DNA of 64,000 bases, from positions 1-64,000 of the IMG/VR virus record IMGVR_UViG_3300020401_000001; one strand, 5' to 3'. Positions 44,101 to 56,283 of the stretch are shown one piece after another. The notes under the pieces are model-generated. The model made no database searches. It had not been told where the DNA came from and worked only from the letters and a program-made list of their open reading frames with translations. A program made the position numbers and the translations under genes. The stretch comes from a virus. How positions within the stretch are numbered: the stretch's first letter is position 1; the number at the start of each line of letters is the position of its first letter.

Positions 44101-45089
44101 CAGGTAATATATCACAAACTAAAAATGTATTAGGAACTATAACTCCTTATACAGGAGAATTTGGTGTTGGACTAAATCCTGAAAGTGTTTGTAAATATGG
44201 AAACGTAATATATTTTGCAGATACAAGTAGAGGTTTTGTGTTTAGACTATCTAACGATGGACTAACTCAAATATCACAGTATGGCATGGCAAACTATTTT
44301 AGAAGCGAATTGCCTGTGCGTGATTTAAACAAGACTTTAGGTGGATACAATCCAAGAGACGGAGAGTATATTTTGTCTTTACAAGGAGGAACAGAGTCTA
44401 CAGACACTTTATTGTGGGTTGGAGATGAATATACATGTGAACAAACATTCGTTGATGATGTAGTAGAATGGAGAGGTAGCGATGCTGTATGTCTTGTTTC
44501 TTGTTATGGAGAGTGGAAGCCATCTGACATAGTAAGTGACGGTCAAGATTGGAGAATAGACGAATATTATTGTGAGCAAGAAGAGCAAAGACCAACACCT
44601 GCTCCAATTCCTACGCCAGCTCCAGCACCTACACCAGTACCTGTTGTTGTGCCTTCGCCATCGCCAGTACCAGTGCCTACACCAGTGCCAGTTGTAGCTC
44701 CTAACCCAACACCTTCACCAGCACCGACACCAGCGCCTGTAGCGGACTTACCACCATCGCCAACACCTAGTCCTACTCCGTCACCTACGCCAGCACCCGT
44801 GGTAATTCCAACGCCTAGTCCTACGCCTAGTCCTACGCCTGCGCCAGCGCCTACACCTACACCAACACCAGCGCCAGCAAGCCCAACAGCATTTAGGTTA
44901 AACCCATGTAACCCGTTTGGTAGTTATGGTAAGAAAATAGCATTTGACTCTGGTCTGTATGTCGGAGCTGTGGTTACAATAGAAGATGGAAACTGTTATG
45001 CGGTTAGTGCTGCTATCACTGATACTGCTAATTCTACGGTATCTCAGATTTTCTTAAATTGTTATAATTGTACTAATGGAATATTTTAA
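41181..45089 (+). CDS. Large tail protein ('stabilization'-type) with C-terminal X-Pro tract and Cys-rich domain
   Basis: A 1302-residue protein. The N-terminus (GGKMNKDVDERLVPDGQYRD, AENIKVAMSNSSDVGALENV) matches large tail proteins in marine and crAss-like phages. The conserved body runs to about residue 1070 (YNPRDGEYILSLQ). Then come short repeats of the W-x6-C type (WVGDEYTCEQ, VVEWRGSDAVC, WRIDEYYCEQEEQ), an X-Pro tract (about 1138-1235) and a Cys-containing domain (LNPCNPFGSYG... CYNCTNG). In relatives the body continues into a domain found here as a separate gene at 56305. The added C-terminus appears to be an accessory graft. Confidence 0.68.
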   Translation: MRLRNTFIGGKMNKDVDERLVPDGQYRDAENIKVAMSNSSDVGALENVLSNQQKSFLNTGDNAETIGSAAVEYTNCVYWFVKSDTSSAVYEYNITTDLQRIILLDTRTGSDNVLNFTKENRINNVDTVVDTDNGKIFIFWTDGLNPPRKIEIDRAAGYGENNFTDEDISVIVKPPLHRPTFTLSATNTADENYIKDKFLQFSYRYKYVDNQYSAISPFSNPAFEPYPFKYNYGLNSNESFVNRYNVVNLTVNSGSHLVKEVEVLYKEAGKTNLYVVESYNKEKKTWDDNTDYVVTFQNKKISKILPESQIKRIFDAVPRKAFSQTFIGNRLIYGNYTENWNLIDEVGGEIKPDFTASVLTNEFATAPYTTMKSGRDYEVGIVYLDDYGRTTTVLTSDGNSVFVPNENSLYQSKLQVEIRSKAPVWAKYFRFFVKESKLPYDIVIPTRFYVDGAYVWIELTGSDVNKVEKGTRLVVKADTSGPVKGYVETEVLDLQTQTVNFLEPDPTVAELEQKAGLYYKIRPKGFTFNNNAVEIYEFESNHSTRDRREDMIDRGDKLQYFSDPIPYLSESTTLAGNSLSRSGTNIAPRDIRYKIIIDAVGDGITTYDEFRVEYEDNGVAYAQPAVTITGSSQTITNGLSVNFSSRSGHTVGDYWMISGYGKEPLNFGNRDRSHALFRGEPGNEVIEAGSIVEIEYIESQKAGDGYSNSFTESYTSSSKYANLEEWYYGENLSGFGPGVTDAQVFFRHVNLTPNHGGEGDTAYKVQVQQNGTMCMIIQSKQRQWNERNARSRVYTTGLLEIKTSDSLPIFETKGIEKDSDIFFEVGDTYELSENDTFHVGKAGDVPQSFTSPAVITIDAHNAWAWGNGYESIKIKDLFNNPTFTFDTRPSTFIESYRENNRVASLTYSGVYEQSTNFNALNEFNLSTANFKDIDDALGSIQKIVSRDNDIVVFQENKISKLLFNKNIIFNTDGSGNISQTKNVLGTITPYTGEFGVGLNPESVCKYGNVIYFADTSRGFVFRLSNDGLTQISQYGMANYFRSELPVRDLNKTLGGYNPRDGEYILSLQGGTESTDTLLWVGDEYTCEQTFVDDVVEWRGSDAVCLVSCYGEWKPSDIVSDGQDWRIDEYYCEQEEQRPTPAPIPTPAPAPTPVPVVVPSPSPVPVPTPVPVVAPNPTPSPAPTPAPVADLPPSPTPSPTPSPTPAPVVIPTPSPTPSPTPAPAPTPTPTPAPASPTAFRLNPCNPFGSYGKKIAFDSGLYVGAVVTIEDGNCYAVSAAITDTANSTVSQIFLNCYNCTNGIF
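44590..44888 (+). repeat. X-Pro coding repeat tract 1
   Basis: About 300 nt of degenerate hexamers (CCTACxCCA-like) coding alternating X-Pro with X mainly Thr, Ala, Ser, Val. GC content is higher than nearby. Part of the tail protein at 41181. Confidence 0.85.
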
Positions 45090-55303: not shown

Positions 55304-56283
55304 AAACAGCTTTAGTTTTAGGTGGTGGAGGTTTTATAGGCTCACACCTTATAAAAAGATTAAAAGAAGAAGGCTACTATGTTAGAGCAGTAGACTTAAA
55401 AAAACCTGAATTTTGGAAAACAGTAGCAGACGACTTTATTGTTGGAGATTTAAGATGGAGTCATATATGCTCTGCCGCATTCAGACCTTTAGAAGGAAAA
55501 AGAAAATTCGATGAGGTTTATCAGCTTGCTGCCGATATGGGTGGCGCTGGTTATCTGTTTACTGGTGATAGTGATGCAGATATTATGCACAACTCTGCCT
55601 TAATCAATATGAATGTATTAAGGGAATGCGTTGTTGATGAGCATGCTCCTGGTAGAATATTTTACGCAAGTAGCGCCTGTGTGTATCCAGAGTACAATCA
55701 GCTGGACCCAGAAAGCCCAAAATGTACAGAAGATAGCGTATATCCTGCTGAACCTGACTCTGAATATGGATGGGAAAAATTGTTTAGTGAAAGAATGTAC
55801 ATGGCTTTTGCAAGAAATAAAAACTTAGATGTAAGGATAGGAAGGTTTCATGGAATCTTTGGACCATACGGAACATGGACTGACGGCAAAGAAAAAGCTC
55901 CTGCTGCAATTTGTAGAAAAGTTGCAGAATCAAACGATAGTATAGAAATATGGGGAGATGGAGAACAAACTAGGTCGTTTATGTATATAGATGATGCTAT
56001 TGATACAGTCCGTAAATTTATGATGAACAAAGGATTTCAGGGACCAATGAATATAGGTTCTGAAGAAATGGTATCTATAAATAACTATGCACGCATAGTA
56101 ATGGAAGTTGCAAAAAAAGATTTGGATATTGTGCACATAGAAGGTCCACAAGGTGTGAGAGGAAGAAACTCAGACAACACATTAATGGAGCAAGAATTGA
56201 ACTGGACTCCAGGCGGTAGTCTTAGAGATGGTGTGGAAAAAACGTACAAGTGGATTGAAGAGCAGGTGCAAAAACTGTCTTAG
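55300..56283 (+). CDS. GDP-mannose 3,5-epimerase
   Basis: A 327-residue extended SDR that in plants converts GDP-D-mannose to GDP-L-galactose. Visible: GGGGFIGSHL (8-17), LAADMGGAGY, SSACVYPEYNQ with Cys127 (plant Cys145), SEYGWEKLFSE with Tyr156 and Lys160, GRFHGIFGPYGTW, GKEKAPAAICRKV with Lys199 (plant Lys217), WGDGEQTRSFMYIDDA, MNIGSEEMVSIN and GPQGVRGRNSDNT. These long matches set it apart from UDP-glucose epimerases. It would supply donor for the O-fucosyltransferase-like domain. It overlaps the GT gene by 4 nt. Confidence 0.83.
   Translation: MKTALVLGGGGFIGSHLIKRLKEEGYYVRAVDLKKPEFWKTVADDFIVGDLRWSHICSAAFRPLEGKRKFDEVYQLAADMGGAGYLFTGDSDADIMHNSALINMNVLRECVVDEHAPGRIFYASSACVYPEYNQLDPESPKCTEDSVYPAEPDSEYGWEKLFSERMYMAFARNKNLDVRIGRFHGIFGPYGTWTDGKEKAPAAICRKVAESNDSIEIWGDGEQTRSFMYIDDAIDTVRKFMMNKGFQGPMNIGSEEMVSINNYARIVMEVAKKDLDIVHIEGPQGVRGRNSDNTLMEQELNWTPGGSLRDGVEKTYKWIEEQVQKLS

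Follow-up and report, generated by a model that had tools for sequence, protein, structure and literature searches.

Why would a phage carry, directly behind a row of proline-rich tail genes, a prolyl 4-hydroxylase (P4H)-type gene followed by enzymes that handle sugars? The question is raised by a locus in IMGVR_UViG_3300020401_000001, a virus record of 69,291 bases whose first 64,000 bases were analysed here and are called the window. The phage was assigned to the crAss-like group (Crassvirales) because two of its genes match, above the Pfam cut-off, PF25731 (muzzle protein) in one and PF25729 (muzzle C-terminal domain) in the other. By its muzzle, the nearest named relatives are phages of Flavobacteriia, e.g. 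Cellulophaga phi38:1 and Maribacter phage Panino, and the isolated relatives of the group have Flavobacteriia hosts and come mostly from seawater. We propose that the cassette probably serves phage-made, hydroxyproline (Hyp)-linked glycosylation of stiff tail-tip stalks, and we judge it from genome comparisons to be a real, recurrent phage gene system. The core idea of an earlier sequence-only reading, that the phage modifies its own X-Pro appendages via Hyp, was supported by a genome co-occurrence test, in which a tract was present in 53 of the 54 muzzle loci bearing the hydroxylase and in none of the 80 without it, the positives coming mainly from hydroxylase-selected scans.

In the proposed mechanism, a tandem oxygenase would hydroxylate prolines in the X-Pro tracts of a muzzle extension and four stalk proteins, and glycosyltransferases encoded by the phage itself would then attach sugars to the resulting Hyp. 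A GT60-type enzyme would add most likely N-acetylglucosamine (GlcNAc) or a similar sugar, an O-FucT domain would add an L-fucose-like sugar, plausibly L-galactose derived from the epimerase, and a fused carbamoyltransferase would add a carbamoyl group. The chemistry, order and sugars of these steps, as well as the virion location of the four separate stalk proteins, are what we infer from the gene content; the benefit may be protease resistance, reach through the host surface layer, or evasion. The genes run from the muzzle with its tract through four X-Pro genes and four overlapping enzyme genes to the muzzle C-terminal-domain gene, with the enzyme genes all on the + strand and each overlapping the next by 4-14 bases (aa, amino acids):

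41181..45089, + strand: muzzle (tail tip) protein, 1302 aa; PF25731 E 1.6e-18, phrog_14478 virion structural protein E 2.3e-259
45090..46874, + strand: X-Pro stalk protein, 594 aa; main tract aa 43-164 (45216-45581), shorter tracts to aa 478, C-terminal domain
46898..47887, + strand: X-Pro stalk protein, 329 aa; tract aa 41-132 (47018-47293)
47889..48641, + strand: X-Pro stalk protein, 250 aa; tract aa 46-115 (48024-48233)
48833..50590, + strand: X-Pro stalk protein, 585 aa; four tracts, aa 64-124, 188-275, 334-362 and 435-520
50634..51248, + strand: predicted P4H-type N-terminal domain (aa 1-205 of the 421-aa tandem oxygenase); PF13640, phmmer, alignments
51249..51899, + strand: predicted second 2-oxoglutarate (2OG) oxygenase domain (aa 206-421), including the stop codon; alignment, AlphaFold, Foldseek
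51886..54456, + strand: O-FucT-type (aa 6-310) / Nol/TobZ-type carbamoyltransferase (aa about 366-849) fusion; PF10250, PF02543, PF16861, phrog_1601
54449..55303, + strand: GT60-type (PF11397) glycosyltransferase, 284 aa, D92-S93-H94 motif; Pfam, model, Foldseek
55300..56283, + strand: GDP-mannose 3,5-epimerase (GME)-type short-chain dehydrogenase; phmmer to 8sg0 and 2c59
56305..57045, + strand: muzzle C-terminal-domain-like protein, closing the cassette; PF25729 E 1.3e-12

Residues 1-1069 of the muzzle are homologous to the phi38:1 muzzle (40.5% identity), and in the C-terminal extension beyond this part an X-Pro tract occupies aa 1135-1237 (44583-44891), accompanied by a small C-terminal domain. 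Six genes with X-Pro tracts or a shared module had been claimed from the sequence; five with tracts were counted (starting at 41181, 45090, 46898, 47889 and 48833), not six. They hold 321 tract prolines and 419 other tract residues, among them T (114), A (94), V (73) and S (52), so that 253 of the 419 are neither Ser nor Thr. A pattern of 12 alternating prolines gave 51 overlapping matches in the window and none in 100 dinucleotide shuffles, which rules out a chance origin of the tracts. A simple DNA repeat was likewise ruled out, because the tract proline codons are mixed (CCT 157, CCA 139, CCG 17, CCC 8). No Pfam family was found above cut-off in the stalk proteins of the window. Comparison with the relative L134 revealed differences at 3 of 320 aligned tract prolines and at 102 of 417 other tract residues, and with L132 at 1 of 321 and 31 of 418, respectively; outside the tracts, 230 of 2,236 non-proline sites were changed. 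The spacing of tract prolines is thus kept, and the residues between them turn over faster than the rest of these proteins. In the 45090-46874 protein a further domain occurs twice (at aa about 310-400 and again at 490-594), with an HPI...Cys-x2-His-x2-Met motif (CLNHGYMGG and CFFHGYMGG) that we take to resemble a cupredoxin copper site; this domain gave only a weak Pfam match to GLEYA, and a PDB sequence search found nothing convincing.

The P4H-type enzyme was present where the sequence-only reading had placed it (2OG-FeII_Oxy_3, PF13640, E 1.2e-16, 61.9 bits against a cut-off of 27), and proved to be a tandem of two 2OG oxygenase domains, the second (aa 206-421) being additional to that reading. 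In the N-terminal domain, alignments showed H93, D95, H163 and K173 to be invariant among relatives, an HxD...H...K set that presumably supplies the iron and 2OG residues, and the nearest PDB sequences were bacterial and algal P4H chains (phmmer E 3e-24 and 3e-15). In the second domain, H330, D332, H393 and R395 are invariant, the HxD...H set being present in 27 of 27 alignment rows. Its AlphaFold model (pLDDT 92.5) retrieved prolyl hydroxylases first in Foldseek, with a P. putida P4H on top (E 7e-8) and the Dictyostelium enzyme at rank 4; its best phage-family match carries the label 'ferrochelatase'. From these similarities the tandem enzyme is a putative prolyl hydroxylase. In three loci (L405, L406 and L407) the second domain occurs without the first, with a Pro-tract gene upstream of it and an HPAT-like gene downstream, which suggests that the second oxygenase domain may serve a tract by itself; in L405 a stop codon lies inside the matched stretch of this domain. 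On the host side, a scan of 84,980 species genomes, which finds exact peptide patterns only, yielded one locus, in a Saprospiraceae metagenome-assembled genome.

An IMG/VR scan with the tandem hydroxylase gave 180 confirmed relatives, of which the best 80 (49-99% identical) were kept. A same-strand gene scored as Pro-rich (11 or more prolines within 30 aa) was present in 75 of the 80 loci, usually as a muzzle or stalk gene ending 4-60 bases upstream. Four of the five exceptions are cut by contig ends, namely L137, L138 and L196, with 0.3-1.7 kb of upstream sequence, and L208, in which PIPTPAPTAP is encoded by the first, contig-cut reading frame; the fifth, L198, has a tract of 9 in 30. Among 134 muzzle loci (out of 299, the others being without a recognised muzzle or 1.5 kb behind it), 53 had hydroxylase and tract, 80 neither, one the hydroxylase with a 10-of-30 tract, and none a tract alone, the loci not being independent samples; clustered at 70% muzzle identity, the classes comprised 14, 49, 1 and 0 clusters in the same order (Fisher p 3e-13). 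As a control, two scans with the muzzle protein gave 147 distinct loci, none of which had the second oxygenase domain. In 3 of these loci a gene was Pro-rich; in L221 this was the muzzle, in the other two a different gene. The contig of L221 ends 66 bases after the muzzle, and its 30-residue tract string is shared with the hydroxylase-bearing L383. Five isolates of the phage group showed no hydroxylase match; their muzzles contain 3% proline, and no tract lies in the surroundings. Loci with the N-type oxygenase only, a further control, had a tract in 2 of 40 cases, and those with the second domain alone in 3 of 4; no tract was found within 8-10 kb of an N-type P4H in four of four phage records. 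When the trait is placed on a quick tree of 83 muzzles, the starred branches make three changes necessary; these changes, and another tract protein in a different phage group, rule out one inherited accident.

That different group, without the muzzle (L340 and L377-L379), was reached by a second scan, and by gene resemblance we presume it to be 'T4-like'. In L377 the tandem hydroxylase is followed by an O-FucT/GT60 fusion, a carbamoyltransferase, a GT60 gene, another carbamoyltransferase, an epimerase and then the tract protein; L378 has one more gene inside the cassette and the same end. In both, the tract protein, unlike the muzzle in sequence, lies 41 bases behind the epimerase. L340, which at first sight lacked a tract gene, has relatives (L377-L379, 87-89% identical) that carry it.

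What stands behind the hydroxylase in its relatives could be read in 108 of 112 loci. The next gene encodes O-FucT in 45 of them and only GT60 in 8; 20 belong to a family whose representative is L183 (PF04488, E 1.7e-9) and 16 to an HPAT-like family, three of these behind the second domain alone; the remainder are three others of the large cluster, 7 weak GT34-like, 5 radical SAM and 4 epimerase genes. The HPAT-like protein of L141 matched PF23452 with 30.7 bits (cut-off 23.9), the most telling match because the known substrate of the HPAT family is Hyp. By Pfam, HPAT is absent from the cassette genes of the window, which has GT60 and O-FucT, and no HPAT relative matched in 50,697 phage records. 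These neighbours, together with the co-occurrence, support the view that the hydroxylase belongs to the tracts and comes with what appear to be protein-type glycosyltransferases. Two side features were seen among the relatives. In L164 (12785-13797), a gene resembling sulfotransferases (E 0.003, below cut-off) and one for an APS kinase (PF01583, E 2.5e-15) separate the tandem hydroxylase from the muzzle C-terminal gene, a pair that would suit sulfation of the glycans in this phage. L003 (1419-1925) and L004-L006 have an additional gene between stalk gene and hydroxylase that the window lacks; it encodes a methyltransferase-like protein of 169 aa with weak Pfam matches.

All enzyme families named from the sequence were found by profile, on the + strand and overlapping. 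The predicted fusion is one 856-aa protein matching O-FucT (5.9e-20, 72.5 bits against a cut-off of 31.5), Carbam_trans_N (PF02543, 6.5e-17) and Carbam_trans_C (PF16861, 3.4e-51), the latter two also above cut-off, and it is similar to POFUT2 chains and to the O-carbamoyltransferase chains 7xb6, TobZ and GdmN. The GT60-like transferase matched the 'GlcNAc' family PF11397 (E 1.7e-33, 117 bits against 21). In its D-x-H motif, which we take to be the characteristic one of the family, D92 and H94 are invariant and S93 nearly so (26 rows). The GT60 model (pLDDT 96.2) gave ppGalNAcT-2 as the top Foldseek match (E 2.6e-9), followed by a collagen galactosyltransferase complex; no convincing PDB sequence relatives were found with the GT60 or HPAT-like profiles. 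The GDP-mannose 3,5-epimerase assignment also held: besides Pfam Epimerase (2e-36), GME chains were closest in the PDB (phmmer E about 1e-88 to 1e-87; 8sg0 4e-88, 2c59 5e-88), the next family following at 6e-22, and the protein keeps the aligned Cys, Tyr-x3-Lys and Lys, presumably the catalytic residues. O-FucT is present in 27 of 76 loci with hydroxylase and muzzle C-terminal gene (near-copies kept), and among these 76 all 19 carbamoyltransferase loci and all 14 epimerase loci also carry it, which fits the idea that the epimerase would feed, and the carbamoyltransferase finish, what O-FucT builds.

Does Hyp or threonine carry the sugar? Two separate modifications are conceivable, in which the oxygenase would hydroxylate prolines for a stiffer polyproline helix, and the GT60-type and O-FucT-type enzymes would glycosylate Thr and Ser of the tracts, the stalks being still self-glycosylated without passing through Hyp; we consider this unlikely, with a real chance all the same. 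The trypanosome GT60 enzyme probably glycosylates Thr/Ser. Distant viral GT60 loci have a tract gene in 26 of 78 cases, against 3 of the 147 control muzzle loci, with 17 adjacent on the same strand where 5.1 were expected; those without any P4H have it in 24 of 66, with 17 adjacent against 4.8 expected, so GT60 may use Thr. Thr makes up 0.58 of the non-proline tract residues in the distant GT60 loci and 0.31 in the P4H loci. In Xanthomonas phage XacN1 and Stenotrophomonas phage RAS14, GT60 and carbamoyltransferase genes lie 6-9 kb from, and on the opposite strand to, the gene of a giant protein whose C-terminal portion contains S/T-P tracts. P4H was undetected there by family or by profile of either type, so any glycan would not be on Hyp; XacN1 virions reportedly have at least two glycoproteins by proteomic analysis, and the phage's own transferases were proposed as their source (PMC5852040). 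GT60 itself includes a T. cruzi polypeptide enzyme besides the Hyp enzyme Gnt1 (PMC6939170). Against separate modifications stand the HPAT-family genes behind the hydroxylase and the long tracts free of Ser/Thr, such as the PVPV-type tract of L189 over up to 28 prolines, as well as the predominance of amino acids other than Ser and Thr (253 of 419) between the tract prolines of the window. Weighing the HPAT genes, the Ser/Thr-free tracts, the GT60 loci without P4H and XacN1/RAS14 together, we hold that viral GT60 enzymes are often, by prediction, tract glycosyltransferases, that in loci with the tandem hydroxylase Hyp would be a likelier acceptor than Thr, and that for the GT60 step Thr would nevertheless be a serious rival. 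At L074, a locus in a 229-kb virus record, a GT60-type gene is surrounded by genes for Thr-Pro tract proteins, one of which carries SprB repeats (PF13573); nothing in the whole record matched the profile of the tandem hydroxylase.

Epimerases, carbamoyltransferases and many glycosyltransferases also serve polysaccharide pathways. The oxygenase might hence act on the tracts and the sugar enzymes on something else, a host surface polysaccharide or a small molecule. The phage S-SCSM1, with its large cluster of genes of epimerase, carbamoyltransferase and glycosyltransferase kinds, would suit this explanation, and so would the polysaccharide enzyme KfiA and SpsA among the GT60-model fold matches. 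We nonetheless find it improbable, given that tract genes and the muzzle C-terminal-domain gene flank the cassette, that the best GT60-model fold matches are polypeptide-modifying enzymes, and that GT60-type genes adjoin tract genes even without P4H. It is harder still to believe that the tracts are plain rigid linkers and the enzymes nearby by chance, or metabolic passengers acting on host proteins. X-Pro tracts are indeed present in many phages that lack these enzymes: at least 120 stretches with 12 alternating prolines were retrieved by a scan, and 6 of those listed had an enzyme or muzzle match in the DNA fetched. The near-strict pairing of tract and hydroxylase in muzzle loci, repeated in separate muzzle lineages and another phage group, speaks strongly against mere linkers.

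Several observations weigh against Hyp-linked glycosylation of the stalks as the explanation of the cassette. They include, besides the GT60 loci without P4H, their Thr-rich tracts and the hydroxylase-led sampling of muzzle loci, the fact that X-Pro tracts are usually unaccompanied by these enzymes among the stretches listed. Prolines outside the tracts are well kept too (2 of 76 changed in L134), so the point for selection is the kept spacing with faster turnover between. The modelled fold of the second domain matches other 2OG oxygenases as well as P4H: in VIA-align, a 2OG oxidoreductase and BesD/Hal lysine enzymes scored level with or above P4Hs (Z 13.5-15.6 among the matches listed). The full-length tandem protein was found in no record of the phage collection, and of the HPAT-like proteins, 6 of 15 scanned match PF23452 at E<=0.01 on their own. 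The muzzle scan that put the window protein first did not retrieve the hydroxylase-bearing relatives, so the muzzle scans sample patterns and not the whole family. On the quick tree, tract and hydroxylase change together in three of three independent pairs, for which a sign test gives p 0.25. For the Chlorella virus PBCV-1, which encodes a P4H acting on Pro-containing peptides, purified virion proteins reportedly contained no detected hydroxyproline (PMC7019647).

Enzymes without any Pro-rich protein, which the sequence-only reading had named as its refuter, were first met in L340, L325, L317 and others. L340 and L325 were rejected as counterexamples because their contigs stop short of the position at which the tract gene lies in L377 and L378, so L340 is explained by truncation; the objection stays for several partial records. 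A tandem hydroxylase without the strict tract pattern occurs in L299, L303, L306, L317, L325, L331, L340, L363, L380, L386, L388, L400 and L402, all possibly partial, and this likewise counts against the link. L299 has a weaker tract; L317, L388 and L400 are records of 60.7, 52 and 90 kb, and L400 has an HPAT-like gene despite showing no tract pattern.

Apart from the cassette, the window encodes an ArdC-like anti-restriction protein with a metallopeptidase domain (8707-11151) and a phage-coded chaperonin (Cpn60_TCP1, 12159-13748). In the cyanophage S-SCSM1 (NC_070962.1), which grows on Synechococcus WH 7803, a virion protein with the annotation central spike has a Pro tract (172919-172992) at its C terminus; the genome has 13 matches to the 2OG-oxygenase family, including an oxygenase of the second-domain type, genes for O-FucT and carbamoyltransferase, and a second tract (28463-28788) rich in Arg/Gln-Pro.

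More broadly, we lean towards a mobile 'extensin kit', in which the tandem prolyl hydroxylase and X-Pro stalks would move between unrelated phages with swappable Hyp glycosyltransferases (GT60, HPAT-type, PF04488 type, O-FucT) and finishing enzymes (epimerase, carbamoyl-, methyl-, perhaps sulfo-transfer). It would span several crAss-like lineages and a group of larger phages, with the tandem hydroxylase almost only in viral contigs. If true, the kit would be widespread in environmental viruses, with 180 relatives from one scan, and it would provide, as far as the literature searched shows, the first Hyp-linked glycoproteins made by a bacterial virus. Hyp O-glycosylation would then not be confined to eukaryotes, and bacterial viruses would make extensin-like glycoprotein stalks in the prokaryotic cytoplasm from a compact operon. 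At least some viral prolyl hydroxylases now listed as auxiliary metabolic genes would gain a function, a source of Hyp-glycosylating enzymes working in bacteria would be at hand, and there would be a testable account of how phages of this group protect or tune their tail-tip adhesins.

No published description of this phage system was recognised in the open-licence PMC literature (preprints not covered), and known systems resemble it in part. Viral P4H genes of metagenomes have been listed as auxiliary metabolic genes, their viral use being called 'cryptic' (PMC9301287). In contrast to PBCV-1, the P4H gene belongs here to a single series of overlapping genes that links it to tract proteins and glycosyltransferases. 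XacN1 and RAS14 share a GT60-type and a Nol-type carbamoyltransferase gene near a tract protein, but no P4H was found in them and the tract gene is on the other strand. Mimivirus L230 is reportedly responsible for hydroxylysine glycosylation of the virus's own collagens; as in the cassette, a virus hydroxylates and then glycosylates its own repeat proteins, but there on lysine in collagen triplets and in a eukaryotic host.

The Skp1 pathway of Dictyostelium and Toxoplasma is cytoplasmic. Like the cassette, it has a P4H and a GT60 enzyme (Gnt1, which adds alpha-GlcNAc to Hyp), with later fucosyl transfer (PMC6939170). It differs in modifying one Hyp on one host protein, as against some 321 tract prolines in five phage proteins, and the substrate candidates linked to the cassette are X-Pro proteins, the muzzle among them. 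To our knowledge, that pathway includes neither a carbamoyltransferase nor a GDP-mannose epimerase. In plants, P4H and HPAT arabinosyltransferase serve to make hydroxyproline-rich glycoproteins (extensins, arabinogalactan proteins). Their X-Pro tracts are rich in Ser/Thr/Ala/Val, as here, and relatives of the cassette have an HPAT-family gene behind the hydroxylase; the differences are the GT60 and O-FucT of the window in place of HPAT, and the phage origin. By analogy, the cassette would appear to work like the Skp1 pathway and plant Hyp-rich glycoprotein synthesis, being neither of them by substrate.

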